Of a stretch of DNA of 64,000 nt, positions 1 to 57,491 are shown in pieces. Source of the DNA: a virus; IMG/VR virus record IMGVR_UViG_3300037882_003336, positions 1 through 64,000 of that record. One strand, 5' to 3'. The notes under the pieces were generated by a model, which saw only the letters and a list, made by a program, of their open reading frames with translations, had not been told where the DNA came from and did not search any database. The position numbers and the translations under genes were made by a program. Position 1 is the stretch's first letter; each line of letters begins with the position of its first letter.

Positions 1-99
1 CACGGGTGGCTCTTCCACGGGTGGCTCTTCCACGGGTGGCTCTTCCACGGGTGGCTCTTCCACGGGTGGCTCTTCCACGGGTGGCTCTTCCACGGGTGG
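1..99. repeat. 15-bp tandem repeat, six full copies plus nine bases
   Basis: The unit cacgggtggctcttc repeats perfectly from base 1 to 90 and then breaks off after cacgggtgg. It runs off the left edge, so the true copy number is unknown. Read on the minus strand it stays in frame and encodes the pentapeptide EEPPV again and again at the end of the overlapping gene. The perfect identity between copies implies recent slippage or active length change rather than an old repeat. Confidence 0.97.
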
Positions 100-597
100 A
101 TTGACGCGGTCGAGGGACGCACGCAGGGTAGCGGCGGCACCTTCAAGCGAATCACCTTCGGCGACGAGGCGGTCCTTGATGGCGGCGAGGTTGGCGACTT
201 CAGCGGCCAGAGCGGCGTTCTGTTCAGTCGTGAGGTTCAGTTGCGAAGTCAGACCGGAAATGCTGGTATTGGCAGCTTCCAGATCGGCTTGCAGTTGACG
301 GAGGTTGGCGAGGGCTCCGGGGAGACCGTCGAGGAACGTGGTGGTGGCGGCGATGGTGGCGAGCGCTTGCGCGGTTTCGCTGGGATTGTCGGGCATACTG
401 GTTGTGTGGTTTGGGTTGACCCTGTCAAGAGCCACGCGGAGTGCTTGGACCCTGTCAAGGAAAATGTTTACTTGGCCTTTCAGAACAATGAGTTCAGCGC
501 GTTCAGCGAGAAGCTTCGTGTAATCATTGTTTTCGACAGCTTTGGCGCGTCCCAGAAGGACGGCTAGGGAACCTGAGAATCTGGAGAAGACTTCCAT
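1..597 (-). CDS. Coiled-coil protein with EEPPV tail repeats (3' end missing)
   Basis: The frame is open from the ATG at 597 to the left edge, at least 199 residues, with no stop in the window. Residues 1-68 are basic and helical. From Met68 onward there is an Ala/Leu/Asn-rich heptad-like stretch (LTSQLNLTTEQNAALAAEV), then RVNPPV followed by repeated EEPPV. The segment ALDRVNP occurs near residue 60 and again as SLDRVNPPV, so the two halves may be an old internal duplication. The in-frame ATG at 396 is an alternative start giving a 132-residue fragment (MPDNPSET). The acidic, proline-rich repeat should form an extended spacer. It lies in the structural half of the genome, next to a virion decoration candidate, so a virion or coiled-coil scaffold role is possible. 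I do not recognise the family. Confidence 0.75.
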   Translation of the reverse strand, partial: MEVFSRFSGSLAVLLGRAKAVENNDYTKLLAERAELIVLKGQVNIFLDRVQALRVALDRVNPNHTTSMPDNPSETAQALATIAATTTFLDGLPGALANLRQLQADLEAANTSISGLTSQLNLTTEQNAALAAEVANLAAIKDRLVAEGDSLEGAAATLRASLDRVNPPVEEPPVEEPPVEEPPVEEPPVEEPPVEEPPV

Positions 598-642
598 GGG
601 CGGATAGAACACTGGCTAATTAGCCTATTGGTGAGGTTACCA

Positions 643-1032
643 CTATGAAATTCGTAGTGGGGTGATGTCTAAAACTGGAATACTGCTGGTGATGCCAGCA
701 CGCTTGGCCTTGGCGATGAAGTGGTGACCGTCCACCACGTGGTCATTGATCAGTAGCACATACTTCTCGCCGTTTTTGATGGACGACCTAACCGCGTCAC
801 CGCACTTCTTCTCGCATTCGTCCTTGACTGCCTTCACGGCGGTCTTGAGGTTCTCAGGATCGGCCTTGCTGATGAGTTCCGGCAACACGATACCATACTG
901 GATAACAGTGCCAGTCTCATCAGAAAACTGAGCAACATCCTGCCGAACCGACTTCGGCAGATCCTTTACCCGAACGTCGCCGATATAGGCGGACTCATCG
1001 AGCCTTGAGAGAATTCTACGGGAAAGACGCAC
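643..1032 (-). CDS. DGHH (ParB/sulfiredoxin-like) protein with leader-like N-terminus
   Basis: 129 residues from a GTG start. The C-terminal half reads YVLLINDHVVDGHHFIAKAK and ends SIPVLDITPLR. That matches the pattern of ParB/sulfiredoxin-like folds, in which a conserved GHHR-type loop binds nucleotide. I recall similar short DGHH proteins in other large myoviruses, often near head genes, without a proven role. The N-terminus ends in RLDE at residues 10-13 followed by Ser, which fits the (L/I)xE cleavage leader seen on many proteins here. It follows a strong hairpin and lies downstream of the decoration-protein candidate. Nuclease or nucleotide-binding activity is inference only; the full ParB motif set is not visible. 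Confidence 0.7.
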   Translation of the reverse strand: MRLSRRILSRLDESAYIGDVRVKDLPKSVRQDVAQFSDETGTVIQYGIVLPELISKADPENLKTAVKAVKDECEKKCGDAVRSSIKNGEKYVLLINDHVVDGHHFIAKAKRAGITSSIPVLDITPLRIS

Positions 1033-1053
1033 CCTAAAGATAGTGGATACAGA

Positions 1054-1080
1054 GACGCCGCACCTTGTGAGTGCGGCGTC
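1054..1080 (-). terminator. Strong GC-rich stem-loop, likely terminator
   Basis: A perfect 10-bp stem (GACGCCGCAC / GTGCGGCGTC) with a 7-base loop lies between the 1102-1674 gene and the 643-1032 gene. On the minus strand it is followed by TCTCTGTATCC, not a clean U-run. A second hairpin at 9019-9046, behind the capsid gene, shares the GCCGCAC/GTGCGGC stem core and a similar TTCTGTG tail. I read both as transcription terminators or RNA-end stabilisers. Confidence 0.6.
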
Positions 1081-1101
1081 TAAGGAAGGTCAGGCGACGT
1101 G

Positions 1102-1674
1102 TTACGCGCCGATCACGAAGTAGAGGAACGCGGTCGCCTTACCACCGGTCAGAGCGGCAGTTGCGGTCGTGAATGTGATCTGACGGGCGGCAGTCAAGAC
1201 GATCGAAGTCGACTCGGGCGTGTTGGCCTTTGGCGTGATCGCTTTCCGGCCAGTGGTCGACCAGGGCGCACCACCAAACGCAGCAGCCGCGATAATGTCG
1301 TCGGCGGCGTTGATGCTGACCGCGACAGTGGCAGATCCGCCGCTGGCCAAAGCGGTGTTGACTTGAACGAAACCACCCACGATGATCGCATTGATTGGGA
1401 TGACCGGGCCGACGACGTGGGCGGCGATGGTGCGCTGGGCGGTATTGGCGGTCGGGTCGAAGGTACCACGAGCGACTTGCAGTCCGGCAGCACCATCGGC
1501 AGCACCATCGGTACCTTCAGCCAGAAGACCGTAGGCTTCAAGGGCGGCACGAACACTGGCGGTGGCGGCTGGGCGAACGACCGGAGTGGTGCCGAAGAAC
1601 CCGAGCTTCGCAGCCGTGGTTTGGCCAATCTTGATGCCGTTGACGTTGTGGGAGGAAATGATGTTGGTCTTCAT
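1102..1674 (-). CDS. Virion decoration / head-fibre-like protein
   Basis: 190 residues starting MKTNIISSHNVNGIKIG; a longer frame begins with TTG at 1725 but has no support. Residues 10-30 carry KIGQTTAAKLGFFGTTPVV, a signature I know from many phage proteins annotated as head-fibre or virion surface proteins. The rest alternates short beta-strand-like blocks rich in Ala, Thr, Val and Gly. It ends FLYFVIGA, again typical of these trimeric beta-rich surface proteins. It lies among capsid-region genes and is followed by a strong hairpin. No enzyme motif is present. Role as capsid decoration or short fibre is inferred from the motif and composition. Confidence 0.7.
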   Translation of the reverse strand: MKTNIISSHNVNGIKIGQTTAAKLGFFGTTPVVRPAATASVRAALEAYGLLAEGTDGAADGAAGLQVARGTFDPTANTAQRTIAAHVVGPVIPINAIIVGGFVQVNTALASGGSATVAVSINAADDIIAAAAFGGAPWSTTGRKAITPKANTPESTSIVLTAARQITFTTATAALTGGKATAFLYFVIGA

Positions 1675-1725
1675 GGAGTGTGGTAATGAGTGATGAACCC
1701 TGCCAAGACATTCAGCAGTTACCAA

Positions 1726-1731
1726 TAGCTA
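1726..1731 (-). promoter_or_regulatory. TAGCTA element, possible late promoter
   Basis: The palindrome TAGCTA recurs upstream of several minus-strand genes (also 12744, 16099, 61710). Here it lies 51 bases before the ATG at 1674. At two other sites it lies exactly five bases before the ATG, the same spacing as the -10 box of the seven strong promoters. There is no -35 box. It may be a late -10 element, but the word also occurs inside genes. Confidence 0.25.
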
Positions 1732-1735
1732 GTCG

Positions 1736-2539
1736 CTACGGAGTGCGAATGCGGAATAATTGTGGTGGGGAGGGTACGGGAACCGTTGGGAGTGAGGTGA
1801 TGTTGATTTCAGCCTTTTCGCCTTCTCCGATGTTATTGACCGATGCCACCCCGTAGTACCCAGTTTCCGTGAGTGGCCATGACAACTTTGGCGCTAGCAC
1901 TTCACCCACCTGATTCCACACTTCACCGGTCTTTTTGTAGATGATGAACTTGAAAGTCTTGCGACGCTCGCTTGGTGCGTGCCACGTGAGAGACAGAGGC
2001 GGTGGAAGGTCGGAGGGCGGCAAATAGTCTTCAAGTTCGTAATCCAGTACCAACTCAGGGCGGTCCGGATAGACGTACCGGTAGTACCGCTGACCCGTGA
2101 TCACGCCAATGGTGGACGGCTTGCCAGGAACGCTCTCTTCCGTTGCGCTTGCTCTGGTGGTCAGATAATCGTCCTCCACCGCCCAATCGATGAGGTTGCC
2201 AGAATGCTCCAGCACCACCCGATAAACGTCGAGTGACAACTCGTCGCTATGCTCGCTTTCAAGGCTTCCTGATTCTGGCGTTCCGTACGCGGTCACCGAC
2301 GAATACCACATTCCGGGTGTCAATACGAGATGGTTTTTGAGCGGTGTTTCCACCACGTTTCCCACGTCGAATGTCTGAGTATATCCACGCGGAGTTCTCC
2401 CAAGGTGAGCACGGTATCCACCTAAATGGGGCTCCACGTTGGCATCCCATGACACCGTGATATCAGCGGGTTTGGTGGCGAGTTGGGAGAACGACGTGAC
2501 CGATAGGGCGAAGAAGGCGAGGATGGAGAGCAGTTTCAT
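1736..2539 (-). CDS. Secreted fibronectin-III-like protein
   Basis: 267 residues. The first ~18 (MKLLSILAFFALSVTSFS) form a Sec signal peptide. Residues 25-100 show the fibronectin type III pattern (ITVSWDAN, GGYRAHLGRTPRG, SSVTAYG). A second Ig/FnIII-like domain sits near 185-255 (LSLTWHAP, KFIIYKKTG, GYYGVASVNNIGEG). The plus-strand gene at 57492 encodes a shorter relative with the same VxWxxN...GY pattern and an MKLL start. FnIII domains in phages usually aid binding to carbohydrate or cell surfaces and are normally virion parts. A signal peptide instead suggests export from the infected cell. No catalytic residues are visible. Confidence 0.75.
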   Translation of the reverse strand: MKLLSILAFFALSVTSFSQLATKPADITVSWDANVEPHLGGYRAHLGRTPRGYTQTFDVGNVVETPLKNHLVLTPGMWYSSVTAYGTPESGSLESEHSDELSLDVYRVVLEHSGNLIDWAVEDDYLTTRASATEESVPGKPSTIGVITGQRYYRYVYPDRPELVLDYELEDYLPPSDLPPPLSLTWHAPSERRKTFKFIIYKKTGEVWNQVGEVLAPKLSWPLTETGYYGVASVNNIGEGEKAEINITSLPTVPVPSPPQLFRIRTP

Positions 2540-2554
2540 AGGTTCAAGAGAAAG

Positions 2555-3400
2555 TCATCGCTTGTCCTTCCGCTGCTCTTGGCGCTGCTTGTGTTGCTCG
2601 ACGAACTTCTTCGCAAATTCGGTGATAGTCTTGGCACCGTATTGCTTGAGCAGTTTCTCCCACCTTTCCCAATACCCACGCACTGCGATACCCTTGTGAG
2701 ACCGCATGTTGTGCACGTCTGCACCCATTTGGGTGATGAAGTCGCTGTGGTAGTATAGCAGGCGGCGGTACCATGGTTCCGTACGGATCTTAGCACCGCT
2801 CTCCAGGAACTTCAATAGGTCGTCCATACGGACCAACTCCCTCTCACCCCGCTCGAAGTGATGCGGGGGGTTGGCCTGTTCGGGAACCCCCTTCATGAAC
2901 TCTTCCGGTGTCTTAGCACGCCGGGTGTCCAGTAGCTCGTAAGCCTTCTGATTGTCGTACATGTAGACGGGGAACTCCGAGATAAGCGTGAGGTTTTCGA
3001 AGTCGTCCCGTCTTCCCTGTTCGAAGTATTTGACGTGGACCGCCTTAATGTACTGGCGGAATCCACGAATAGCGGGCTTGGCGGAGAACAGGCGTTCCTC
3101 TGATTCAGTCTCACCACCCCATCCCCAGTAGTCAACGGGGCGAAGCTTGTAGCGTTGACGGAGTTTGTCCCAGTCCACCACGATCGTCACCGAACTCCCC
3201 TTCCGGTATCGGTTGTTGGGGACGCGGCTGAACGAGATGAAGAACCCCTCGTCGCCGTGCCTGATTTCCGAATCCCCGCGACCGTAGCTCAGTTCGAACA
3301 GGTCGTCCGCCACGATCTTCCACAACGCCCGGAGCGAGGTGACATGGTAAAGCTCACCATGGGACTCAAGGAGCGTTTGAAGGGTGGCGGAAAGACTCAC
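2555..3400 (-). CDS. ADP-ribosyltransferase-like protein with capsid-targeting leader
   Basis: 281 residues. The leader MSLSATLQTLLE ends at Glu12 before Ser, an LxE site of T4 gp21 type. The body shows an ART-like order: LYHVTS at 17-22 (strand with His and Thr), FFISFSR at 53-59 (the S-T-S-like strand), VTIVVDWDKL at 71-80 and ESEERLFS at 99-106, with Glu as candidate catalytic residue. T4 Alt is a packaged ADP-ribosyltransferase that carries the same kind of leader and acts on host RNA polymerase, so the pairing of leader and fold fits. It is first of four adjacent leader-bearing genes. An RNA 2'-phosphotransferase-type fold is an alternative. The leader is clear; the enzyme call is moderate. 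Confidence 0.6.
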   Translation of the reverse strand: MSLSATLQTLLESHGELYHVTSLRALWKIVADDLFELSYGRGDSEIRHGDEGFFISFSRVPNNRYRKGSSVTIVVDWDKLRQRYKLRPVDYWGWGGETESEERLFSAKPAIRGFRQYIKAVHVKYFEQGRRDDFENLTLISEFPVYMYDNQKAYELLDTRRAKTPEEFMKGVPEQANPPHHFERGERELVRMDDLLKFLESGAKIRTEPWYRRLLYYHSDFITQMGADVHNMRSHKGIAVRGYWERWEKLLKQYGAKTITEFAKKFVEQHKQRQEQRKDKR

Positions 3401-3402
3401 CC

Positions 3403-3840
3403 CTAAACGTACTTCTCAGCGGTCCTGCCGTAGAACGTAAACCCGCCCTCCTTCTCCACCATCGCTTTCGAGACATCCGAAACCACTTCCAGCGAAATCT
3501 TCTCAGCCCCACAGCTGGTCGCCTCTGCGATACCCGCGTCGAACAGCATCCGACCGATACCTTTCCCCTGATAGGCTGGATCGACGACAATGTCGAACGA
3601 GAAGGTTGACCCACCGTCCCGGACACCACCAAACCAAGCCCCCACCACATCGTTTGCGGAAAACTCCGTGTGATCATCGTGGTTTACCCGGACAACCGCC
3701 CCCATGAGTTCCTTGTCGCTCAGGATGTTGATGGACGACTCTTCCGCAATCGCCCATGCCCCGTCCATGATTTCCTGGTCCTCAGTGTCAGCCCACTGAC
3801 ACGAAGCGAGTGCTTCCAGTAAGGACCGTGTCAGGCTCAT
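3403..3840 (-). CDS. GNAT acetyltransferase with capsid-targeting leader
   Basis: 145 residues. The leader MSLTRSLLE ends at Glu9 before Ala. The GNAT core follows: FSFDIVVDPAYQGKGIGRML at 80-99 contains the acetyl-CoA binding Q/RxxGxG loop at 91-96, and the C-terminal KISLEVVSDVSKAMVEKEGF-like stretch with FYGRTAEKYV completes the fold. GNAT enzymes transfer an acetyl group to amines of small molecules, tRNA, peptides or proteins; the target here is unknown. With the leader, the enzyme would be carried in the head and act on host factors right after injection. It sits 2 bases from the ART-like gene, so the two are co-expressed. Confidence 0.8.
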   Translation of the reverse strand: MSLTRSLLEALASCQWADTEDQEIMDGAWAIAEESSINILSDKELMGAVVRVNHDDHTEFSANDVVGAWFGGVRDGGSTFSFDIVVDPAYQGKGIGRMLFDAGIAEATSCGAEKISLEVVSDVSKAMVEKEGGFTFYGRTAEKYV

Positions 3841-3842
3841 AC

Positions 3843-4145
3843 TCAGTCTTTGAAACCACCAAAGTCAGCCCCGATCTGTTCATAAGGCTTGCCGAATTTG
3901 CGATTGTAAAGGTCAATCAGCTGCTCGCGTGAGAAATCGCTCAGCAAGAACCTGATCATTCTGACTTCCGCTGGCGCGAGGGGGTGGGAACCCGGCATGG
4001 TGGTAAGGGCACCAATGATCGCGTGGACGACTTTCTTGGGGTCACGGAAATTCGAATCTTCCGGCGATATGTGGAAATCAATGGAGTAGTCCCGTGGCGG
4101 TTCGGACTCAAGCAGAGTCTCCGCGAGTTCTTGGGCTTTGCTCAT
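3843..4145 (-). CDS. Small protein with capsid-targeting leader
   Basis: 100 residues. The leader MSKAQELAETLLE ends at Glu13 before Ser. The mature part (SEPPRDYSIDFHISPED) is mixed alpha/beta with a helical C-terminus (EQLIDLYNRKFGKPYEQIG). I do not recognise a family. The gene lies between the GNAT gene and another leader-bearing gene with only 2-20 base gaps, so it belongs to the same transcription unit. Likely a packaged internal protein; function unknown. Confidence 0.7.
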   Translation of the reverse strand: MSKAQELAETLLESEPPRDYSIDFHISPEDSNFRDPKKVVHAIIGALTTMPGSHPLAPAEVRMIRFLLSDFSREQLIDLYNRKFGKPYEQIGADFGGFKD

Positions 4146-4164
4146 GGGTAAGTGGTGAGAGTGC

Positions 4165-4500
4165 TTATGGGACTTTGCAAATAGCTGCGTACGCCATCAG
4201 GTCCCCCTTCCTGTTGAGCGCGTTCAAGTGTCCGGTTTTTTCGTCCCATTCAAACTTCGCACCATGTTTCTGCAGTTCGGCCATTGCCGCGTTTGGGTCG
4301 GTGTATCCACGACTGATTTTCAACCTCCCGCCGAAGGTGGTGTTACCGGTGATCCGGCTGAACTTCCCAAGAATCACCGTAACAATGCACTCCCCAGCCC
4401 CAGGCGTTGGACCAACCCACTTCGCCTGCTGAAACGCAGGCTGTGTTGGAGTTTGTGGCAACTCGGGTGACTCAAGCAGTTTTTCGGCTAGTGTGCTCAT
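4165..4500 (-). CDS. Small protein with capsid-targeting leader
   Basis: 111 residues. The leader MSTLAEKLLE ends at Glu10 before Ser and is nearly identical to that of the gene at 33187 (MSTLAQKLLE), although the mature parts differ. That points to leader swapping or shared descent of the leader alone. Mature residues are beta-rich (ECIVTVILGKFSRITGNTTF, GGRLKISRGYTDPN) and end with a small Gly/Lys-rich motif (RKGDLMAYAAICKV). No family recognised. It is the first gene of the 2555-4500 leader cluster in transcription order. Confidence 0.7.
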   Translation of the reverse strand: MSTLAEKLLESPELPQTPTQPAFQQAKWVGPTPGAGECIVTVILGKFSRITGNTTFGGRLKISRGYTDPNAAMAELQKHGAKFEWDEKTGHLNALNRKGDLMAYAAICKVP

Positions 4501-4508
4501 CGTGATAG

Positions 4509-5000
4509 TTAGTGCTGTTCACCGCTTTTTCGCGCCAGTTTGGCGACACGATCATTCATGCGGTTCAGTGAGTGCCGTGGATCGTCGAAGTTGGTGTGGC
4601 CCTTGACGTGTTTGAGCCAGATGACACCGCGCTGGACTTCCTTGATACCAAGGGAGGTCTGGCGGAGTTCGACCGGTACTTTGCCAGCCCGTCTGCCCGT
4701 GGTGCGGAAGGAGGTCTTGGCGAAGCGAGCGTCGGCAAAGGTGAGCAGGAGCCCAAGTGCCTCCAGCGAGTCGCATTGTACCACCCAAGCAATCTTGGCC
4801 TGAGTGTGGTGCGCCTGCAGGGCGGCGTTGATGCCAGCCTGGATGCCAAGGAGTTCCCCGTGGCTGCACGAAATGGCGCTTGAACTCCCGTGACCCTTAC
4901 CTCGTGCGACGTGGGATTTGAACCAGTAGCTCCACCCCGCCACCCCACCCTTGAACGAAGCATCCGAAAAGACGGTGATGAGGACGGAGTCTTGGGTCAT
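4509..5000 (-). CDS. Ribonuclease H (RNase HI-type)
   Basis: 163 residues, normal for RNase HI (~155). The four metal-binding acids can be placed: Asp13 in VFSDASFKGGVAGW, Glu49 in SHGELLGIQAGINAAL, Asp77 in VVQCDSLEALGLLL and Asp150 in NRMNDRVAKLA. A flexible His sits in the HVKGHTNF segment. The enzyme cuts the RNA strand of RNA-DNA hybrids; in phages it removes primers, as T4 rnh does with a different fold. There is no leader, so it acts in the infected cell. Start ATG at 5000; it follows the surface-sorted protein gene by 24 bases. Confidence 0.85.
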   Translation of the reverse strand: MTQDSVLITVFSDASFKGGVAGWSYWFKSHVARGKGHGSSSAISCSHGELLGIQAGINAALQAHHTQAKIAWVVQCDSLEALGLLLTFADARFAKTSFRTTGRRAGKVPVELRQTSLGIKEVQRGVIWLKHVKGHTNFDDPRHSLNRMNDRVAKLARKSGEQH

Positions 5001-5024
5001 GTGGCAAGTTGGTTCGATACCGAC

Positions 5025-5591
5025 CTAGCACAGGCGGCGGATGATGGACAGACCCCACATGCTGGCCATGAAGCCCACGATACCAATGCCACCCTCCGGA
5101 ACGTTCACGTTGCTGGTCGTGGTCGATGACCAGCTGAGCACCCGGACATCCGGGATGTCGGCACGGAGACCCTGTTGAGTGCTGAACGCGAAGTTGGCGT
5201 CGGATGGGTTCTCGCCGTTGGTGGTAATGAACCCGTCGCCCGATAGGAACAACAGATAGCCACGCGGAAATGAGTGTCTCCGGATTTCCGTGGACTCCAG
5301 CGTGAATTCGTAGAGGTTGCCACCGTTCATCACGGACCACAGGACGTATGGCATGAAGGGTTCATCCGTCAGGTTCAGCGGGTTCATGACGAAGTCCGAT
5401 CCGACGGTGATTCCGTCGAAAACGCCATCGGTCGTGTGAGTACGACGTTGGCTCATGCTGCCCAAGGTCGTGGCGGAGCCAAGGTTGGCGTCGGGCAGGC
5501 CAATTCCGGACATGCCGAGTTCGCTGAAAATGGCGACGGCGTGAAGTGGCTGGGCGAGAAGGAGCAACGCTCCGAGTAGTAGTATTTTCAT
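5025..5591 (-). CDS. Exported protein with VPEGG (VPDSG/PEP-CTERM-like) sorting tail
   Basis: 188 residues from the ATG at 5591; the longer frame to 5711 overlaps the next gene. Residues 1-18 (MKILLLGALLLLAQPLHA) are a signal peptide. Residues 164-188 show the three-part exosortase signal: VPEGG, a ~15-residue hydrophobic helix (IGIVGFMASMWGLSII), then RRLC at the very end. This is the layout of VPDSG/PEP-CTERM proteins, which host exosortase cuts and anchors or exports, mainly in Verrucomicrobia and other Gram-negatives with exopolysaccharide. The middle is beta-rich (YEFTLESTEIRRHSFPRGYL) and resembles no enzyme. A phage product built for this host pathway would be placed on the host envelope, perhaps for exclusion of other phages. 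Confidence 0.75.
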   Translation of the reverse strand: MKILLLGALLLLAQPLHAVAIFSELGMSGIGLPDANLGSATTLGSMSQRRTHTTDGVFDGITVGSDFVMNPLNLTDEPFMPYVLWSVMNGGNLYEFTLESTEIRRHSFPRGYLLFLSGDGFITTNGENPSDANFAFSTQQGLRADIPDVRVLSWSSTTTSNVNVPEGGIGIVGFMASMWGLSIIRRLC

Positions 5592-5626
5592 GGTTGGTGG
5601 GGAATTGGTACTTGACAAGAAAGGTG

Positions 5627-5878
5627 TTACAGCAGACCCTTCTCGCGGAGGTAAGAAATTTGGGCTTGCTGGGTTGGGAAGAGCTTGGCGACGTTGTACC
5701 CACCGATCCACAGCGTCTTGATGCCAGCTTGGAACTCCGACTCAATCCGGGAATCGGCAACCGAACCACCCCGATCCGTGAAAAAGCTCTCAGGGGCGGC
5801 TTCGTTGGTCCACTTACCGGTGATGCCGACCGTGTAGTAGGTGGCTTCAGTAGCTTCGATGGTTGGTTGCGTCGTCAT
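5627..5878 (-). CDS. Small early protein behind a strong promoter
   Basis: 83 residues (MTTQPTIEATEATYYTVGIT ...). The start is fixed by the promoter at 5884-5912, which puts transcription onset at or next to the ATG. The C-terminal half (WIGGYNVAKLFPTQQAQISY) looks helical. No signal, membrane span or metal site. It precedes the surface-sorted gene and RNase H gene and may be expressed with them. Function unknown; placement suggests an early host-interaction role. Confidence 0.75.
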   Translation of the reverse strand: MTTQPTIEATEATYYTVGITGKWTNEAAPESFFTDRGGSVADSRIESEFQAGIKTLWIGGYNVAKLFPTQQAQISYLREKGLL

Positions 5879-5883
5879 TCCGT

Positions 5884-5912
5884 ACTATAACACTGCTTGG
5901 AACCTTTGTCAA
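5884..5912 (-). promoter_or_regulatory. Sigma70 promoter giving a leaderless mRNA
   Basis: Minus strand TTGACA (5912-5907), 17-base spacer ending in GTGT, TATAGT (5889-5884), then five bases to the ATG at 5878. The expected start of transcription falls on or beside the A of ATG. No room exists for a ribosome binding site. One of seven near-identical copies in the window. Confidence 0.88.
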
Positions 5913-5965
5913 GTGGGTGAGCGGGCCGGACGCTACCCCGGCTAGATAGTGGTTCTGATGGTGGC

Positions 5966-6052
5966 ACGACCCCTTAACCTGTTCTCATCTGTGACTTATT
6001 GTGGTCGTAGGAGGCATCTGGTTCTTCAGATGCGCGTGTCTGCTTTCCACGC
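5966..6052. other. Run of three hairpins in a 180-base gap
   Basis: The gap 5879-6058 holds the promoter at its left end and, to the right, three stems: ACGACC (5966-5971) with GGTCGT (6003-6008); GCATCTG with CAGATGC (6014-6033) around a 6-base loop; and GCGTG with CACGC (6034-6052). They lie directly behind the stop of the 6059-6448 gene, without a U-run. They could end or stabilise the upstream transcript or form a small RNA. They do not fit a tRNA. Confidence 0.45.
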
Positions 6053-6058
6053 CGCCGC

Positions 6059-6448
6059 TCAAAAGGTTACTTGGAAGTTCTGAATGAAGACGAGGGTTGG
6101 TTCGACGATAGTCCGCTGAGCCACCCACGCCTTTGCTTCTGCAAGCGCTAAAGCTTCGTCGTCGTATCTCTCGAACGGCTTAACCAGTTCAAATTCGTTT
6201 TCAAACACAGCCCAGCCTTTGGAATTGCGGTCGATCGAGATAAGGTAGCGTTTGTCGATCGTGTCAGGTTTATCCAGTTCAACCGGGAATCTGCTCTTGA
6301 GCCAAATCTTGTTCGCCGAGTCGAGTAGTGCAGCCAAGTCTTCATGACCGCCACCAACCAGCCAAGAACGGGTGTCCTTGTAGTCATTGAAGAAATCGAA
6401 GCGACCGATTCCGGTGAGTGGGTCTTTGAGAATTTCGCGGACAATCAT
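6059..6448 (-). CDS. Unknown early protein
   Basis: 129 residues (MIVREILKDPLTGIGRFDFF ...). Aromatic-rich alpha/beta protein with SWLVGGGHEDLAALLDSANK and a C-terminal VEPTLVFIQNFQVTF strand. The ATG overlaps the stop of the upstream gene by 4 bases (ATGA), so translation is coupled. It is the last of three genes behind the promoter at 7343-7371. The N-terminus has no LxE site. Family not recognised. Confidence 0.65.
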   Translation of the reverse strand: MIVREILKDPLTGIGRFDFFNDYKDTRSWLVGGGHEDLAALLDSANKIWLKSRFPVELDKPDTIDKRYLISIDRNSKGWAVFENEFELVKPFERYDDEALALAEAKAWVAQRTIVEPTLVFIQNFQVTF

Positions 6449-6705
6449 GGGGTAGGTACGAGTTTGGCTTTTTGGTGACGAATGCCCTGTAGAACACGCC
6501 TCCGGGCGTGCATGAGAGCACGGATTGGGTCAGCGACTGGCATCGTGTAAACGTTGCCGACTCCAGCACCGCTCACGTCCAGCCAGTACCGGATGTGTTG
6601 GAAGATCATTGCACGTGGCTCCGGGCGGATATCCGGAGTGAACCTGATGACGGCACCCTTGTAGCGATACTCGGGCTTTGGCGTTGGGACGGCTTGGGTG
6701 GACAT
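6445..6705 (-). CDS. Unknown small early protein
   Basis: 86 residues from the ATG at 6705 (MSTQAVPTPKPEYRYKGAVI); a longer frame reaches 6753 but runs into the upstream gene. The middle carries RFTPDIRPEPRAMIFQHIRY, and the C-terminus is basic and helical (RALMHARRRVLQGIRHQ), compatible with nucleic-acid binding. It is 4 bases behind the 6710 gene and overlaps the 6059 gene by ATGA. No known family. Confidence 0.65.
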   Translation of the reverse strand: MSTQAVPTPKPEYRYKGAVIRFTPDIRPEPRAMIFQHIRYWLDVSGAGVGNVYTMPVADPIRALMHARRRVLQGIRHQKAKLVPTP

Positions 6706-6709
6706 GGTG

Positions 6710-7336
6710 TTATGCGGTGCGGTTCTTTTCAGCGATCTTGATGGCTTGTTCACGGCTGACTTCCGTCACCACGGTTCCGTCGCCGAACGTGGGGTCATGG
6801 AAGTGACCGTCCCAAAGCCGGGTGTGGGTGGACTCGTCGCCCGACTGCTTTTTGAACGCGATTTCGCCGAGCGTGGAGGACCACACCAGAAAGTACCCAC
6901 CGGGCTTGACCTTTTCGATCACCGTAAGCTTGCGCTTGGGGTTCGCGGCCTTCGTGGCTTTCGCGTCCTTCTCATCCACCAAGCGCTGGTGATTCGACAT
7001 TTCGACCTCCGGACCGCGCTGGAAGAACGGGTTGACGAACGGTTCTTCATTCTTACCCTTGAGCGTCACCGAGTGAAGCGTGATTCCGTTGTGCAGCTTT
7101 TCGAGTTCAATCTTGGTCACCACATAGGGTCCACCCTTGAGTCGGGCGATGTCACCAACCAAGAGTTCACGAACTGGGATGCGAGCGAAGTTGTCCATGG
7201 TTTTGGTGTGGGTGGTGGGTTGGGTTGGCTCTGGACTTTCCCAAACAACAGCCCCGTCTTGGCAATCCGGATGGTCTTGGTGGTACCAGTACGGGCCAAC
7301 TGGGCTTTCGTGGCGGATGAGCGTGGGTGAATCCAT
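6710..7336 (-). CDS. Unknown early protein, leaderless start
   Basis: 208 residues starting MDSPTLIRHESPVGPYWYHQ. The frame extends to an earlier ATG at 7354, but that codon lies in the -10 region of the promoter at 7343-7371, so the ATG at 7336 (six bases from the -10 box) is the real start. Two halves can be seen: residues ~46-95 are beta-rich (IPVRELLVGDIARLKGGPYV), then a basic linker (KATKAANPKRKLTVIEK) and a C-terminal part with GGYFLVWSSTLGEIAFKK. Function unknown. Confidence 0.75.
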   Translation of the reverse strand: MDSPTLIRHESPVGPYWYHQDHPDCQDGAVVWESPEPTQPTTHTKTMDNFARIPVRELLVGDIARLKGGPYVVTKIELEKLHNGITLHSVTLKGKNEEPFVNPFFQRGPEVEMSNHQRLVDEKDAKATKAANPKRKLTVIEKVKPGGYFLVWSSTLGEIAFKKQSGDESTHTRLWDGHFHDPTFGDGTVVTEVSREQAIKIAEKNRTA

Positions 7337-7342
7337 ATGCTT

Positions 7343-7371
7343 ATTATAACACATCCGAGTTACTTTGTCAA
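7343..7371 (-). promoter_or_regulatory. Sigma70 promoter giving a leaderless mRNA
   Basis: Minus strand TTGACA (7371-7366), 17-base spacer ending ATGTGT, perfect TATAAT (7348-7343), then six bases to the ATG at 7336. Extended -10 (TGTTATAAT). The -35 box lies just inside the end of the neighbouring gene's stop region (7360-7362), so no space is wasted between units. Confidence 0.9.
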
Positions 7372-7728
7372 GTTGGCCACTGCTTTTGAGTTGAGGTTGG
7401 CGTTCACATTAGCCTCCCAGCAACCCTTGTTGAGTGCCATCGCCAGATCGTGGACCCGCACACCCCACTTGGTTTTGTCGAGGTTGAGCGCTTTCAGGTC
7501 CCCGAAGAGGTGCTCCAACTCTTCCCGATGCCCATTCTCGCGGAACTTCACCCCGGCTAGGCTGATCCGTCCGCCGATTTCAGTCGTCACCACGATGACG
7601 TCTTCCTGAAACCCGGTGGTCTTGGTGCCACGATGCTTCCGGATGGACGGGTGGAACACGGACACTTCAACCGACATACCGTTGTCGACGTAGGTGGCGG
7701 TCAAGACAATCTGGGTGAGTTCCTTCAT
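7360..7728 (-). CDS. Unknown early protein, leaderless start
   Basis: 122 residues (MKELTQIVLTATYVDNGMSV ...). Predicted mainly beta in the first half (VSVFHPSIRKHRGTKTTGF, EDVIVVTTEIGGRISL), helical in the second (EELEHLFGDLKALNLDKT). The start is set by the promoter at 7734-7762. It is a single-gene unit: its stop sits within the next promoter. No signal, leader or known motif. Confidence 0.75.
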   Translation of the reverse strand: MKELTQIVLTATYVDNGMSVEVSVFHPSIRKHRGTKTTGFQEDVIVVTTEIGGRISLAGVKFRENGHREELEHLFGDLKALNLDKTKWGVRVHDLAMALNKGCWEANVNANLNSKAVANLTK

Positions 7729-7733
7729 CCCAC

Positions 7734-7762
7734 ATTATAACACACCCGAGTTCTCCTGTCAA
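7734..7762 (-). promoter_or_regulatory. Sigma70 promoter giving a leaderless mRNA
   Basis: Minus strand TTGACA (7762-7757), 17-base spacer ending GTGTGT, TATAAT (7739-7734), five bases to the ATG at 7728. The spacer shares ACTCGG-TGTGT with the promoter at 7343, so these two may be duplicates. The -35 box overlaps the stop codon of the upstream gene. Confidence 0.9.
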
Positions 7763-8379
7763 GTAGTACCACTACCAGACATCTTCTCTCCCTTCGGCGT
7801 AATGACGAAGCCGGATGGATCAACGTAAATTTGGCCAGCTTTACAAAATTCCCCATTCACGGTGACTGTGCGCGGGCCTGAGACGTGGACACCGTGTGCG
7901 ACGAGCCATGCGTCAATCGCGGTTGCAACTTCGTCTCCATCAATTTCGATGTTGACTCCCGGACCATATTTGGTTTGGCCGTTTCCATATTGGATGTTAA
8001 TACCTGATGAAATGACTGGCAAGGAGATTGGGTCGTTGGGCAGCAAAAACTCCTGCTCGACGGCTTGCAGAAGCTGAATTCGCTGGACCGATGGATCAAC
8101 ATGGGAAACGACCAATTCTTTGAGTTTGGTGGCGGTTTTAGCGAACCTCACGCGAAGTTCGGTAGTTTCGCCGGATGCTTGCTGTTTCGCCCGGACCCGT
8201 GCTCCCGACACTGCGGCTTGCGAGATCGCGCCAATGTTCCGCTCCAAAGCGTCGAACACTTCGATTTCTTCTCCAATCCAACCGGAAGCGCCAAGGCGTC
8301 GTCCTAGTTCCTCAACGATCTGGACGGTGGAAACGGAATCGAGGAAGTTGAGTTGTTCCTGAACTGGTACTGTTTTCAT
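7759..8379 (-). CDS. Unknown protein downstream of the HNH gene
   Basis: 206 residues from the ATG at 8379 (MKTVPVQEQLNFLDSVSTVQ); the longer frame to 8610 runs against the plus-strand HNH gene and is rejected. The first 110 residues are helical (IVEELGRRLGASGWIGEEIE, RAKQQASGETTELRVRFAK), then beta-rich with GINIQYGNGQTKYGPGVNIE and VTVNGEFCKAGQIYVDPSGF. The mix of a helical N-part and Gly-rich beta C-part is common in virion proteins, but no family is recognised. Confidence 0.65.
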   Translation of the reverse strand: MKTVPVQEQLNFLDSVSTVQIVEELGRRLGASGWIGEEIEVFDALERNIGAISQAAVSGARVRAKQQASGETTELRVRFAKTATKLKELVVSHVDPSVQRIQLLQAVEQEFLLPNDPISLPVISSGINIQYGNGQTKYGPGVNIEIDGDEVATAIDAWLVAHGVHVSGPRTVTVNGEFCKAGQIYVDPSGFVITPKGEKMSGSGTT

Positions 8380-8429
8380 GGTACCCTTTGAGAACCCAAC
8401 CCACTGTTGTACATTGAGTTCTGAGTTAG

Positions 8430-9074
8430 GTGGCGTCCAAGGAACTAGATGCGATTCACGCGGCTCGGAAACACTTCGCGTTGAAAACGAAGGTGTTGGA
8501 GGCATATGGCGGGAAATGCGAATGCGGCGTGGACGACTTGATTTTGCTGACCGTCGATCACGTGCTGGATGACGGACACGAGCACCGGAGGCAGCTGGGG
8601 AAGGGTGCAACTGGGTATGGACTGTACCGTGATCTTGTTAGGAACGGGTTTCCAGACATCGTGCAGTGCATGTGCTGGAACTGCCAAATCAGGAAGCTCC
8701 GGAAGATGCTGAGGCGTGAAGACGAGTCAACACTAACAAGGGCTGGGAGGTCGTTTCGGAAGTTGAAACGTGAAGTGATGGCGGCTTACGGAAATGTGTG
8801 TTCGATATGCGAAACAAACGACCTTAACGTAATGACCTTGGACCATACAAATGGCGGTGGAAAAGCTCATCGTCGAATTTCCACGCCAATTGCCTACATC
8901 CACGCCAGAAGAGACGGATTCCCTCCTGAATACAGGTTACTTTGTGCCAACTGCAACGCACGTGAGGGGTTCAAAAGACTGGTCCGGAAGTATGGCGACC
9001 TTTGGCCCAAACACAGAACCGCCGCACCCGTTCCCGAGTGCGGCGGCGAAACTGCGGCTGACTCGCTGGATTAG
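8430..9074 (+). CDS. Tandem-domain HNH endonuclease, antisense to the head operon
   Basis: 214 residues from a GTG start directly after an in-frame stop. Two HNH-type modules follow each other: KCECG at ~30 with LTVDHVLDDGHEHRRQ and CMCWNCQIRK, then VCSICE at ~127 with MTLDHTNGGGKAHRR and LLCANCNARE. Each has the DH core and paired Cys for zinc. HNH genes inserted on the opposite strand of structural operons are usually homing endonucleases. Its 3' end overlaps the capsid gene by 4 bases and contains that gene's terminator hairpin. Two cores in one chain may bind two half-sites; whether both are active is unknown. Confidence 0.85.
   Translation: MASKELDAIHAARKHFALKTKVLEAYGGKCECGVDDLILLTVDHVLDDGHEHRRQLGKGATGYGLYRDLVRNGFPDIVQCMCWNCQIRKLRKMLRREDESTLTRAGRSFRKLKREVMAAYGNVCSICETNDLNVMTLDHTNGGGKAHRRISTPIAYIHARRDGFPPEYRLLCANCNAREGFKRLVRKYGDLWPKHRTAAPVPECGGETAADSLD
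9019..9046 (-). terminator. Terminator hairpin behind the capsid gene
   Basis: A perfect 9-bp stem (CCGCCGCAC / GTGCGGCGG on the plus strand) with a 10-base loop, 25 bases past the capsid stop on the minus strand, followed there by TTCTGTGTTT. It sits inside the 3' coding end of the convergent HNH gene. Its stem core matches the hairpin at 1054-1080. Confidence 0.65.
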
Positions 9075-10519
9075 ACCTGCGAGAACTGGTTGCCGTAATT
9101 GGTGATCTTGGTCAGGGCGTACATGCCCGAATTGATCATCTTTTTCCCGTAGGAGCTTGCGAAGCCCTTGCGGCTGAAGAAGTCGTCGAGCGTGACGACA
9201 GGGGTCGAGAAGCTCAGGAGCCACGGGGCGAAGATCAGGCCAGCGCGCACCAGATCGTTGCCTTTGTAGCCCAGGAGACCTTCGTCAACCGGGAAGTGAG
9301 GATCGCTGTACACCTTGAGGTGACCGAGCTTGCCGAGGTAGGCAACCCCTTCGATTTCCGCGCTGTCGCCAGCGGGTTCGAAGTTCGGGAGCGATTCCAC
9401 GATGTTTTGAGCCGCCATGCCGCACATGTACCAGTTGGCACGGGCGCGGTTCGTCGCACGTTGGATGTAAGACGAGCCCTGGATGAGCGCGTCAACGTAC
9501 GAGTATTTGTGCTCGACGTATCCGACGTATTGACCGGCTGGCACGTCGTTATCCCACGTCACCATACCAGCGGTGGCTCCGGTACGGGCGGTCTCGATGA
9601 GTTCCCGATCGATGCTCCACTGCAGTTCGTTGGTGACGGCGGTGCTCAGCAGGTTCTCGGCGTTGACCGAGTGCAGGGCTTCCATGATCCGGGCCGATTC
9701 CATCGACCAACGGATGCGGTGTTTCCGCTCTTGGCAGATGATCTGCGAAGATTGGATTTCCACGTCCATCAGCTGGGCTTCGGTGTTGGTTTCCGGATTG
9801 TAGTTGTAGCTGGCCACCACAGGAACGGAGTTGCTGGTGGTGTTGAGCGCCACCGCACCGTTGTTGTAGTTGATCGATCCAACGGGGTTGTTGGAGCCGT
9901 CAACGATGACGCCGTTGCCGTTGTCGGTCACGAGGACCGGGGTGCCGGATGGGTCGAGGGTGATCGAAACCGAACCGGGGATGACGGGGAACCACGCCAG
10001 CGATGTCGAGGCGATGTCACCGGATACGTCGGTCGTACCGATCGACTCTTCGTGGACGGTGTTGGCACCGTCGTTCATGCGGTCAGCGTGACCGGTCCGG
10101 GCGTCCCACACCTTGGCACCAGCGGGGGTCGATCCCTTCGCCATGCCGGTGATGAAGTTCATGTAGAACACGAGACCCTGAGGACCGTCGAGCGGCTGGG
10201 TGGTGAACAAGTCTGCGGCGACGAGGTTTTCCGAGACGATCGACAGGACCGGGAAGGCCCATTTGTCGAAGGTGCCGACGTTCATCGACGTGGTCGCTTC
10301 GTTGAACTTGCTGAGGTCGGAAACGCGTTTCCGGTAGTTCTCCAGCATGGTGGCCATGAAGGCACGGCGATTTGGGTCAGTGACGCCATCGCAGTATTCC
10401 TTCCAGCCTTTGGCTTCCGACAGGCGACCGCCCTTGGCGAGTCCCATCGGGGTTTCCGAGAGAAGCAGGCCACGACGAATCGTTTCGGCGAGCTTGGTGG
10501 TGTCAATCGAGGAGTGCAT
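9071..10519 (-). CDS. Major capsid protein, T4 gp23-like
   Basis: 482 residues, close to T4 gp23 (521). Clear gp23-type signatures: LFTTQPLDGPQGLVFYMNF near 105-123, and the HRIRWSMESARIMEALHSVN and LQWSIDRELIETAR helices in the second half. The N-terminal prodomain contains gp21-type cleavage sites: LSE at 20-22, LSE at 33-35 before Ala, and FNE at 72-74 before Ala. By analogy with gp23, removal of about the first 74 residues during maturation is expected. The protein forms the HK97-fold shell. It follows the fused protease-scaffold gene by 45 bases. Start ATG at 10519 lacks a Shine-Dalgarno sequence (CTACAAATG). Confidence 0.92.
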   Translation of the reverse strand: MHSSIDTTKLAETIRRGLLLSETPMGLAKGGRLSEAKGWKEYCDGVTDPNRRAFMATMLENYRKRVSDLSKFNEATTSMNVGTFDKWAFPVLSIVSENLVAADLFTTQPLDGPQGLVFYMNFITGMAKGSTPAGAKVWDARTGHADRMNDGANTVHEESIGTTDVSGDIASTSLAWFPVIPGSVSITLDPSGTPVLVTDNGNGVIVDGSNNPVGSINYNNGAVALNTTSNSVPVVASYNYNPETNTEAQLMDVEIQSSQIICQERKHRIRWSMESARIMEALHSVNAENLLSTAVTNELQWSIDRELIETARTGATAGMVTWDNDVPAGQYVGYVEHKYSYVDALIQGSSYIQRATNRARANWYMCGMAAQNIVESLPNFEPAGDSAEIEGVAYLGKLGHLKVYSDPHFPVDEGLLGYKGNDLVRAGLIFAPWLLSFSTPVVTLDDFFSRKGFASSYGKKMINSGMYALTKITNYGNQFSQV

Positions 10520-10564
10520 TTGTAGAGATCTGGGTGTTGAACGTTGGTGTATTGGTGATCTCCG

Positions 10565-12703
10565 TTACAGCCTGCGGGCGCGACGCACCATCGACAGGGA
10601 TTCGTGGAGTGCCCCTTCTTCCGCCGTTGGCGGGGTACTGACGGGCGCTTTCGGTTGATCAGCCGCCTTGGGGGGCGTCTGGTTGCTGGATTCCTCCAGC
10701 TTACGCTTGTTGGTGGCTTCGACGTCCTCTTGAACGAGGGTCTTGACCTTGGCCTGGAACGCCTTGAACGACTTACACTCGGTGAGCGTGGCGGCGTGGG
10801 CTTTGTGGAAGGCTGGGTTGGTGGCTTCGAGCAGTTGCAGGCTCAAATCCTTCATGTCCTTGTTGTACATCTCGGCGAGATGCTTCGCGGCCTTTTCGTA
10901 TTCGGCGGTCTGTTCGGTCGCCTCGTTGATTTTGGCCTTGCGGGATTCGGTGACGTTCGTGCGAAGCTTCTCGTACCGACCGAGCAGGCGGGTCGCGGCG
11001 ACGTTGAGCTTTTTGTGCTCCAAGCGCAGGTTGCGGAGAGCCCGCTTGGCCTGAGCTTCGGTCATCGGAGGAAGCGGAGGCGCTTCGGCAGCGGCGGCGT
11101 CATCACCTTCGGCTGCACCACCACCAGCGGCGATGGCTTCATCGTCCAGGGTAGCAGCGAGTTCGGCGATTTCCGGGTCATCACCGCCCAGTTCGCGCAG
11201 CTTATCGGCGGCGGAAGTAAGGGTATCGGCGAGGGCGCTTGGCTCTTCTGGAGCAACGTCATCAACCGGAGGTGCAACGTCGGCTGGAGGTGCACCAGCG
11301 TCATCGGCGGCGGGTGGGAAGTCGGATTCGTTCAGCGCCTTGCGGAAGTCCTTGATAATCACTTGGACTTCTTCGTTGATAGCGCTCAGCGAAGGGTCTT
11401 CACCGAGAAGCCCTTGGGCTTCAACGGACAGCGTGTCGGATTCGCTCAGGGCTCCGGCACGAATGGCGAGGCTGGAACCCTTCACGGGGGTGGCAGCGAG
11501 ACGGAGTGCGCGGGTGCGGACCGCCGTCATTTCAGCGAGTTTGCTCATCTTCTTAGTAGGTGTTGGTGGTGGCGTTGATGGTGGGGTGGCGGGTTGATCA
11601 GGAGACTTTGCAGCCTCCGTGATCTGGCGGGGTTTGAACCCCTTCCCGCCAGACTTTTTCAGAGCAAGCTGGATGAGTTCGTGCTCAGCCAAGGCGCTAT
11701 TGCTCGCGAGGACTTCGGTCGTGGTGTCTCCTTCCACGAGTTTTCCGACAGTCCCAAAATCGTTGGATTCAACGGTCATGACGAGACCGGATTCAGTTTC
11801 AACGCGGTCGCCCTTGTCAAACGCTTCCATGAACGCTTGGACTGGGTGCGAAATCCGGAACCCGCCGAGTTCGACGGCAGCGCGGACGAACGTACAGTCT
11901 TTTTTGGACTCCGTAAATACCATGTGGGCGCGCTCCAAGGCGGCACGTTCGGTGAGGTCACCAGACACCAAGACTGGGACGGTATATTCGGCGTTGTCCT
12001 TGCGGTAGTGGACGATGACGCGGGCGGTTCCTTCGGGAAGCGGATGAGCCTCCTGAACCAGTTCCTTGCCATCCACGAGATCACGGATGGACTCCTGAAT
12101 GGAGCGACCGTCGACGACGTTTTCAACGAGCCGGGGAATGGCACGGGAGACGGACGGATTGTAAACCGCGTCCCAAGTGTCGAGTTCAAAGTCGTGCGAT
12201 TCAACGACCAAACCCTGTGGGGTCTTCATGACGGAGCCCGAACCGCGACTGGAAACGCCCCAGCGCAGCGAAGGGGTGAGCGCCTTCAGCACCTGACCGT
12301 GCGGAGTGTCGAAGATTTCCAATTTCCCCAAGATGTCACCTTCAATCAGATGGGCGGTGGGGTTGGGGTTGCGCTTGGATTCGTAAATCTCGCGCTCCGA
12401 TGCCTGACGGGCTTCAATGATCCGGTGGCTGACCAGGGATAGGCGGGTAATGCCGTCGTCCGGGTGTTCCAAATGTCCGCCGACCCGTGAGTCGCGAACT
12501 CGCTTGGTCCAGTCGGAGCTTTCTGAAAGGACACGGTCCCAAAGGGCTTTGGGATAGATCCGGCCATTTTGGTTGCGCTGGATGGAGTTTTGAAACACCC
12601 CTTCCATCACCATGTTTCCGTTCACCGTCTCTCTCGTGTCCTGCATAGGACGCGTCGGAGACTTCAGAGCGGCTTCTTTTTCAGTCAGGAGTTCGCGTGG
12701 CAT
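10565..12703 (-). CDS. Fused prohead protease and scaffold (T4 gp21 plus gp22-like)
   Basis: 712 residues. Residues 30-185 form the serine protease: GVFQNSIQRNQNGRIYP at 35-51, the catalytic His in GGHLEHPDD (His80), and the catalytic Ser in GVSSRGSGS (Ser152), with WDAVYNPS at 177-184. Residues ~386-712 are an acidic, Ala/Pro-rich helical scaffold starting at an in-frame ATG (MSKLAEMT, Met386) that could give a separate scaffold protein. The scaffold holds many (L/I)xE sites: LSE-S, INE-E, LNE-S, INE-A, LLE-A, LEE-S, LHE-S. In T4 protease and core are separate genes (21, 22); gp21 cuts core proteins after such Glu residues. The protein ends SLSMVRRARRL, possibly a capsid-binding tail. Confidence 0.9.
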   Translation of the reverse strand: MPRELLTEKEAALKSPTRPMQDTRETVNGNMVMEGVFQNSIQRNQNGRIYPKALWDRVLSESSDWTKRVRDSRVGGHLEHPDDGITRLSLVSHRIIEARQASEREIYESKRNPNPTAHLIEGDILGKLEIFDTPHGQVLKALTPSLRWGVSSRGSGSVMKTPQGLVVESHDFELDTWDAVYNPSVSRAIPRLVENVVDGRSIQESIRDLVDGKELVQEAHPLPEGTARVIVHYRKDNAEYTVPVLVSGDLTERAALERAHMVFTESKKDCTFVRAAVELGGFRISHPVQAFMEAFDKGDRVETESGLVMTVESNDFGTVGKLVEGDTTTEVLASNSALAEHELIQLALKKSGGKGFKPRQITEAAKSPDQPATPPSTPPPTPTKKMSKLAEMTAVRTRALRLAATPVKGSSLAIRAGALSESDTLSVEAQGLLGEDPSLSAINEEVQVIIKDFRKALNESDFPPAADDAGAPPADVAPPVDDVAPEEPSALADTLTSAADKLRELGGDDPEIAELAATLDDEAIAAGGGAAEGDDAAAAEAPPLPPMTEAQAKRALRNLRLEHKKLNVAATRLLGRYEKLRTNVTESRKAKINEATEQTAEYEKAAKHLAEMYNKDMKDLSLQLLEATNPAFHKAHAATLTECKSFKAFQAKVKTLVQEDVEATNKRKLEESSNQTPPKAADQPKAPVSTPPTAEEGALHESLSMVRRARRL

Positions 12704-12874
12704 GCTATATGTCTTGTATGCGCAACAAGGCTGTCGTGGTATATAGCTAAGAGATTCGTCTTATGACCTTGTCAATCGCGTCTCCGGCTTAACCGTGTGG
12801 TTTTGAAAGGCACTTAGCGGTTAACCCCCAAGACCTGTCAACTAACACAACCACCACTACTGTCCATTTTACTT
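12704..12874. other. Divergent intergenic region with hairpin
   Basis: 171 bases between the divergent protease-scaffold gene and a plus-strand zinc protein gene. It holds TAGCTA (12744-12749), TGTCAA (12770-12775, a TTGACA on the minus strand without a proper -10 at 17 bases) and an inverted repeat TTAACCG (12789-12795) / CGGTTAA (12828-12834). Promoters for both genes must lie here, but none matches the strong type. I see no gene in it. Confidence 0.5.
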
Positions 12875-13213
12875 ATGAAACCAGACAAAAAGGCGATTCA
12901 AGACACGTGTGCAGTGTGCGACGGAGTATCGGATGGACTATGGCATCATTCCAACACTGATGAATACTTCCCATGTTGCACCAAGTGCGCCAAAGGTAGG
13001 GTTAGGCGCTGGATCGATGAGTGCTACGATTTGGTGAAGAAGTTCCCCATTGAGACCACGGGCAGCATCATCAAGGATCGTGTGATGGCGCTCACCCGGT
13101 CGATCTGGGAAAGTCGCATTGAAGACGGGGTGTGTCCGAATGGGTGCGCCAGACTAGAGACCGCCAGTGGTCATCAGGAATGCCCCAAATGCAAGTTCAA
13201 TACCGGAGACTAG
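12875..13213 (+). CDS. Small zinc-binding protein
   Basis: 112 residues (MKPDKKAIQDTCAVCDGVSD ...). Two zinc sites are suggested: CAVC at 12-15 with CCTKC at ~35-39, and CPNGC at ~88-92 with CPKC at ~104-107. Between them lies a helical segment (RWIDECYDLVKKFPIETTG). One of the few plus-strand genes, convergent with and overlapping the 13210 gene by 4 bases. A nucleic-acid binding or adaptor role is plausible; family not recognised. Its position inside the head module suggests later insertion. Confidence 0.7.
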   Translation: MKPDKKAIQDTCAVCDGVSDGLWHHSNTDEYFPCCTKCAKGRVRRWIDECYDLVKKFPIETTGSIIKDRVMALTRSIWESRIEDGVCPNGCARLETASGHQECPKCKFNTGD

Positions 13214-13539: not shown

Positions 13540-13540
13540 A

Positions 13541-16093: not shown

Positions 16094-16098
16094 GTCGA

Positions 16099-16104
16099 TA
16101 GCTA
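16099..16104 (-). promoter_or_regulatory. TAGCTA element five bases before an ATG
   Basis: TAGCTA, five bases, ATG at 16093. The spacing is that of the -10 boxes in the leaderless promoters, but there is no TTGACA upstream. If real, it would be a -35-independent (late or middle) promoter. The same arrangement occurs at 61710. Confidence 0.35.
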
Positions 16105-16108
16105 GTAA

Positions 16109-18016: not shown

Positions 18017-18020
18017 CCCC

Positions 18021-57474: not shown

Positions 57475-57491
57475 GAAACTTAGGTTTTATT

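Follow-up and report, generated by a model that had tools for sequence, protein, structure and literature searches.

The window considered here, a 64,000-nucleotide stretch of DNA, corresponds to positions 1 to 64,000 of the 78,666-base virus record IMGVR_UViG_3300037882_003336. The record is assigned to a tailed phage because it encodes a T4-like major capsid protein together with a head maturation protease (phrog_207), the protease and capsid genes occupying 9071-12703 on the minus strand. That strand also carries, from 5591 down to 5025, an open reading frame for a protein of 188 residues, P0001, in which the N-terminal signal peptide and the C-terminal succession of VPEGG, hydrophobic helix and RRLC described in the original prediction are indeed present (Table 1). 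The gene lies within a co-directional block of phage genes, with an RNase H-like gene on one side and other phage genes on the other, and its codon use is phage-like; the small gene directly upstream is probably co-transcribed with it. No exosortase gene was found anywhere in the phage record.

Table 1. Features of the P0001 locus and of the surrounding record (coordinates refer to the window unless preceded by L001)
Feature	Position	Strand	Basis
P0001, 188 aa, phage-borne member of a verrucomicrobial exosortase-cargo family	5025..5591	minus	translation; family HMM 67.9 bits
Predicted Sec-type signal peptide, residues 1-18, MKILLLGALLLLAQPLHA	5538..5591	minus	sequence; Ala18 invariant in family
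Exported domain (residues 19-163), for which an antiparallel beta fold is predicted	5103..5537	minus	ectodomain HMM, AlphaFold2, alignment
VPEGG motif, residues 164-168, in register with family VPDGG/VPEP	5088..5102	minus	alignments
C-terminal membrane-spanning helix, residues 169-184 (16-residue hydrophobic stretch)	5040..5087	minus	sequence; AlphaFold2 helix 167-187
Basic end RRLC, residues 185-188	5028..5039	minus	sequence
RNase H-like phage gene, adjoining P0001 downstream	4509..5000	minus	phrog_531, E 2.5e-08
Small gene directly upstream of P0001	5627..5878	minus	same strand, 35 nt gap
TGTTATAGT, putative extended -10 element from which the gene at 5878 and those following it would be transcribed without a leader	5884..5892	minus	TGTTATANT copies
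TGTTATANT sites	5878, 7336, 7728, 32525, 40057, 54427; L001:2183	minus	
T4-like major capsid protein	9071..10519	minus	phrog_138, E 2.5e-40; tblastn to T4-like capsid proteins
Proteins starting with a short helix and an [LI]xE-like site	3403-3840, 3843-4145, 4165-4500, 33187-33555, 38880-39317, 60728-61099	minus	

A mechanical ORF caller began P0001 at a GTG at 5711, which would yield 228 residues, and this start was rejected since it overlaps the upstream gene. The ATG at 5591 is preferred because it falls 35 nt past the end of that gene and because the cellular homologues described below begin, with MK, at the same place in the alignment; the frame closes with a stop at 5025-5027. A Shine-Dalgarno-like core was seen in only 2 of the 23 phage genes checked, and its absence from the P0001 gene is normal here, since 21 of the 23 likewise do without it; the site is also missing from all 12 genes checked in verrucomicrobial exosortase loci. 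The whole record contains seven copies of TGTTATANT, each on the coding strand just before an ATG, and the sequence looks like the extended -10 element of leaderless phage transcripts.

Several small and unrelated proteins of the record share a similar start, in which a short helix is accompanied by an [LI]xE-like site (MSTLAEKLLES, MSKAQELAETLLES, MSVATKITES); by analogy with the T4 capsid-targeting sequences that are cut by the prohead protease, these could possibly be packaged internal proteins. L001:2997-3566 and 3603-4400, both on the minus strand, encode neighbouring proteins that resemble each other, match nothing in Pfam, and bear twin-arginine (Tat) signals, which is unusual in a phage. 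Further exported proteins are found at 1736-2539 (minus) and 57453-57887 (plus) of the window and at L001:12955-13740 (plus); two of these are fibronectin-III-like with signal peptides, the second by a weak fn3 match only, and the third is a lipoprotein with weak beta-helix matches. L001:9224-10108 (plus) encodes a candidate endolysin with peptidoglycan-binding and CHAP domains.

Architecture of P0001

The signal peptide is predicted to be cut between MKILLLGALLLLAQPLHA and VA (PLHA/VA), and the alanine that precedes the cut is invariant in the family alignment. Within the exported domain, residues W85, F96, G118, G120, and G126 are invariant in an alignment of 11 sequences; in an alignment of 36, A18 and W85 remain so, while F96, G118, G120, and P165 are near-invariant. 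AlphaFold2 reached a mean pLDDT of 50.8 when given 5 sequences and of 81.6 when given 36 family members, the latter model showing a domain of antiparallel beta strands and, right behind VPEGG, a C-terminal helix (residues 167-187). When this model was searched against PDB and BFVD, no fold matched at E <= 0.001, so that the fold yields no function. The protein ends as VPEGG-IGIVGFMASMWGLSII-RRLC, and basic residues followed by a cysteine also terminate two of its cellular relatives (L242 and L262).

The tail and the sorting-signal models

The original prediction had named a comparison with the VPDSG-CTERM and PEP-CTERM models as a point on which it could fail, and the tail of P0001 falls below all of them. 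It has no match to TIGR03778, TIGR02595, PF18205, or PF07589; the whole protein matches nothing in NCBIfam, Pfam, or PHROGs, the tail peptide alone nothing in NCBIfam, and TIGR03778 run over the phage record gave nothing at E <= 10. The TIGR03778 search is itself in working order, since it gives 29.9-45.8 bits (cut-off 22) to three VPD/VPE control peptides made close to the consensus, the lowest value, 29.9, going to the VPEGG control. With an HMM of 20 real verrucomicrobial tails, the P0001 tail reached 4.2-4.5 bits, and with one made from the tails of its own family 5.5 bits; such scores are near background, and tail-only HMMs were rejected as a deciding test.

The order and spacing of motif, helix, and basic residues fit VPDSG-CTERM. 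The distance from V to RR is 21 residues, the same as in typical verrucomicrobial VPDGG tails such as VPDGGTTAMLLGAALSVLGVARRY, and P165, the acidic residue 166, G167-G168, G180-L181, and R185-R186 hold the family register. The threonine that follows VPDGGx and the LLG of typical tails are missing, as is a PEP triplet, and because the Thr and LLG positions are gone the exosortase may no longer recognise this tail. Among 5,600 C-termini, taken from six-frame ORFs of the window, its viral relatives, and the bacterial loci, the pattern P[DE][GSAN][GASN]-x14-18-[RK][RK] near the C-terminus occurs in P0001 only, which places the arrangement above chance. When the window and its relatives were scanned for such tails, no other ORF joined a signal-like N-terminus to the motif.

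A cellular family encoded beside exosortases

As a lone query, P0001 retrieved nothing from phage records, IMG/VR, or GTDB genomes, and against 289 Verrucomicrobiota genomes it gave weak matches only (best E 0.004). Homology surfaced only once real VPDSG proteins had been collected and compared: verrucomicrobial genomes were reached through a 16S signature and TIGR03778 then led to the proteins, one of which, L130 of genome G009, can be aligned to P0001 all the way from signal peptide to RR. Using L130 as the sole query, we collected its relatives, and an HMM of 23 of these cellular proteins, from which P0001 had been left out, covers residues 6-186 of P0001 and assigns it 67.9 bits (single-sequence E 4e-23). 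An HMM of the ectodomain alone still gives P0001 42.7 bits, whereas none of about 3,900 shuffles exceeded 9.8. When the set is enlarged to 40, the full score rises to 79.2 bits, a value slightly favoured because some members of this set were found via an alignment that included P0001; the corresponding ectodomain HMM gives 47.3 bits for P0001, 6.5 or less for VPDSG proteins that are unrelated, and 0.3 once the ectodomain of P0001 is reversed. P0001 shares about 25% identity with the cellular proteins while its frame is intact and the invariant residues are kept, which argues for long retention under selection.

Judged by this homology, P0001 is a member of an unnamed verrucomicrobial family of exosortase-locus cargo (L130/L231 type). 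The reading of its layout as that of an exosortase substrate is therefore kept, since full-length homology to verrucomicrobial VPDSG/PEP-CTERM proteins encoded near an exosortase outweighs the failure of the tail in the curated models, whereas cleavage of so divergent a tail is a step that we infer.

The family, whose members are roughly 190 residues long, is represented by no dedicated Pfam or NCBIfam model apart from those for the tail. Among the tails of 36 aligned members (35 cellular proteins and P0001), 26 match PF18205 and 8 match PF07589, P0001 matching neither; the cellular members vary in their tail core and use both VPDGG and VPEP. All 11 family-bearing genomes tested encode an exosortase (PF09721), and in the four loci examined (genomes G009, G327, G341, and G378) the cargo gene is within about 5-8 kb of the exosortase gene on the same contig. 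Each of the four also encodes a PrsT-type TPR protein of about 1,100 residues, assigned by TIGR02917 in two loci and in the other two by 38-62% identity to those. The G009 locus additionally holds PrsK, PrsR, and an EpsL-like protein, and that of G341 a nucleotide-sugar dehydrogenase; the exosortase of G341 resembles XrtC, with 273 bits to TIGR04151 against a cut-off of 300. These conserved exosortase/PrsT/cargo loci (L268 in G009, L269 in G341, L270 in G327, and L271 in G378) come from one verrucomicrobial order.

The host of the phage

The tail had been regarded as a hint at the host phylum. The cargo family is present in 31 of 320 genomes of the order to which G009 belongs and in 4 of 241 across Verrucomicrobiota at large, one of them by its C-terminal part only, and was found in none of 246 genomes of Planctomycetota; owing to this distribution and to the homology of P0001, the evidence points to a verrucomicrobial host, probably from the order of G009. 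The route through CRISPR spacers that had been proposed did not lead to a host: positions 1-20000 of the window, compared with 289 Verrucomicrobiota genomes, gave short matches without repeat context. P0001 represents a protein-based host clue for an unassigned phage.

Occurrence in other viruses

A search with the capsid protein identified six close phage relatives, at 49-56% identity, none of which carries the gene. No relative of P0001 was found in 20 related phage records, in the phage records searched, or in pattern scans of IMG/VR; tblastn with two cellular members against phage records, and with one against plasmids, gave no match. Two weak candidates, in L180 (17.3 bits with the full HMM, the next best of 2,747 viral ORFs) and in L158 (11.5 bits), were rejected: both lie on the strand that does not code for the capsid protein, and a whole-record search did not confirm them.

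The IMG/VR pattern scan did uncover a second phage case, on contig IMGVR_UViG_3300009678_000075 (L305/L306), which encodes a terminase akin to those of epsilon15-type phages along with other phage genes. At L305:9456-10190 (plus) lies the gene of an exported protein of 218 residues that ends in VPDGGGSLVLLGFGLLGLAVVRR, and whose VPDGG tail passes TIGR03778 (25.8 bits, cut-off 22); its ectodomain is unrelated to the P0001 family (-6.3 bits). A short remnant at about 7180-7283 of the same contig bears another VPDSG tail, VPDSGATLILLGMGLCGLAVIRRS. Exosortase-type tails hence occur in phages beyond the window, since this contig has one, and on the strength of the two sequences phages do carry exosortase-type cargo.

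Proposed pathway and alternative explanations

P0001 is best regarded as a divergent, phage-borne exosortase cargo that stems from a verrucomicrobial host, is held as an accessory gene near the capsid genes, and would be sorted by the exosortase of the host, a reading to which we would give a probability of roughly two thirds. As its sequence and family suggest, the protein would be exported by the Sec pathway with loss of the signal peptide, and its C-terminal helix would keep it in the inner membrane with VPEGG facing the periplasm. By the example of the cellular relatives, an XrtC-type exosortase of the host would recognise VPEGG-helix-RR and remove the tail, and the beta-rich domain would be passed to the outer surface or the polysaccharide matrix. 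We infer that the host enzyme cleaves even this divergent tail and that P0001 reaches the surface. More speculatively, the surface or matrix of the infected cell would be altered, for example by hindering the adsorption of competitors or by loosening the matrix before release, and the gain for the phage might lie in such remodelling, in superinfection exclusion, or in an exosortase decoy.

The main rival holds that P0001 did descend from exosortase cargo, but that its drifted tail is now a plain inner-membrane anchor for a periplasmic domain, serving for instance in superinfection exclusion by blocking DNA entry, with no exosortase involved. The failure of the tail in all sorting models, its near-background scores in tail-only HMMs, the loss of the T and LLG positions from its core, and the fact that a helix followed by RR is a normal stop-transfer layout are all compatible with this idea; however, the residues from P165 to R185-R186 that stay in family register and the spacing of exactly 21 residues argue against it, and the same tail core varies among cellular members too, so that this rival seems unlikely, if one to be taken seriously. 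Much less probable is that the poor tail acts as a decoy, which would occupy or jam the host exosortase so that, in the infected cell, the host's own surface proteins are no longer sorted. The pairing of a degenerate tail with an ectodomain and a register like those of the family, and the place of the gene in an accessory block close to the capsid genes, would suit such a role, but a decoy has no need of a conserved ectodomain, and P0001 keeps the invariant residues. More doubtful still is that the gene was acquired recently and by accident from a host, or is an artefact of chimeric assembly, and does nothing for the phage: that no other phage was found with the gene speaks in favour of this, yet the gene sits inside a co-directional phage block next to an RNase H-like neighbour, shows phage-like codon use, and has diverged to about 25% identity with its frame and invariant residues preserved. 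Finally, the notion that an unrelated phage membrane protein ends in VPEGG by chance, a five-residue motif being weak by itself and the tail-only scores near background, is ruled out by the ectodomain-only scores, which far exceed those of shuffled (42.7 against at most 9.8 bits) and reversed (47.3 against 0.3) controls.

Comparison with known systems

Known exosortase substrates belong to the biofilm and matrix proteins of cells. Phages tend to retain genes that pay during infection. In the model of Haft 2006, the signal peptide is lost on export and the helix lodges in the inner membrane with the motif in the periplasm, where the exosortase acts (PMC1569441). Deletion work in a cyanobacterium has tied the exosortase to the exoproteome, motility, and biofilm (PMC12188702), and a PEP-CTERM gene of Aquincola is involved in floc formation (PMC9850573). 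P0001 shares with the PEP-CTERM/exosortase (EpsH) system, which includes PrsK, PrsR, and PrsT (PMC1569441), a tripartite tail and a signal peptide; the loci of its cellular relatives contain PrsT and, in G009, PrsK and PrsR as well. It departs from that system in having no PEP triplet, in the location of its gene outside any exopolysaccharide locus, and in belonging to a phage record without an exosortase. Closer is VPDSG-CTERM (TIGR03778/PF18205) with XrtC (TIGR04151), where signal peptide, VP-acidic-GG, single helix, basic end, and spacing all correspond; the cellular relatives of P0001 carry this very tail, and one of them adjoins an XrtC-like exosortase, whereas the tail of P0001 scores below the models, has E for D, lacks the T after the motif and the LLG, and is encoded by a phage.

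The VPDSG-CTERM protein of L305 is, like P0001, phage-encoded, exported, and equipped with an exosortase-type tail; it differs in its unrelated ectodomain, in its unrelated phage with an epsilon15-like terminase, and in a tail that passes TIGR03778. Taking the two as independent cases, one may tentatively propose, at somewhat less than even odds, that tailed phages of Verrucomicrobiota repeatedly gain exosortase cargo, and that the XrtC/Prs machinery of the host places phage proteins on the surface or in the matrix for remodelling or exclusion. Verrucomicrobiota are an ecologically abundant, poorly tractable phylum, in which the exosortase is hereby suggested as a surface pathway of relevance to phages, while P0001 offers a handle on what exosortase-sorted surface proteins do.

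The original prediction knew of no described phage-encoded exosortase substrate, and full-text searches of the open-access literature likewise found none; within that literature, P0001 would be the first described link between a phage and exosortase sorting. Phage genes that alter the host surface via host export include those of prophage LPXTG proteins and Lom-type outer membrane proteins, which employ sortase or ordinary outer-membrane insertion, unlike the exosortase route. P0001 suggests that a virus uses a sorting route of its host to alter the surface of the infected cell, and it both adds a new and divergent protein to a cellular family that has no name and, as exosortase cargo borne by a phage, would be new among the surface-modifying genes of phages.
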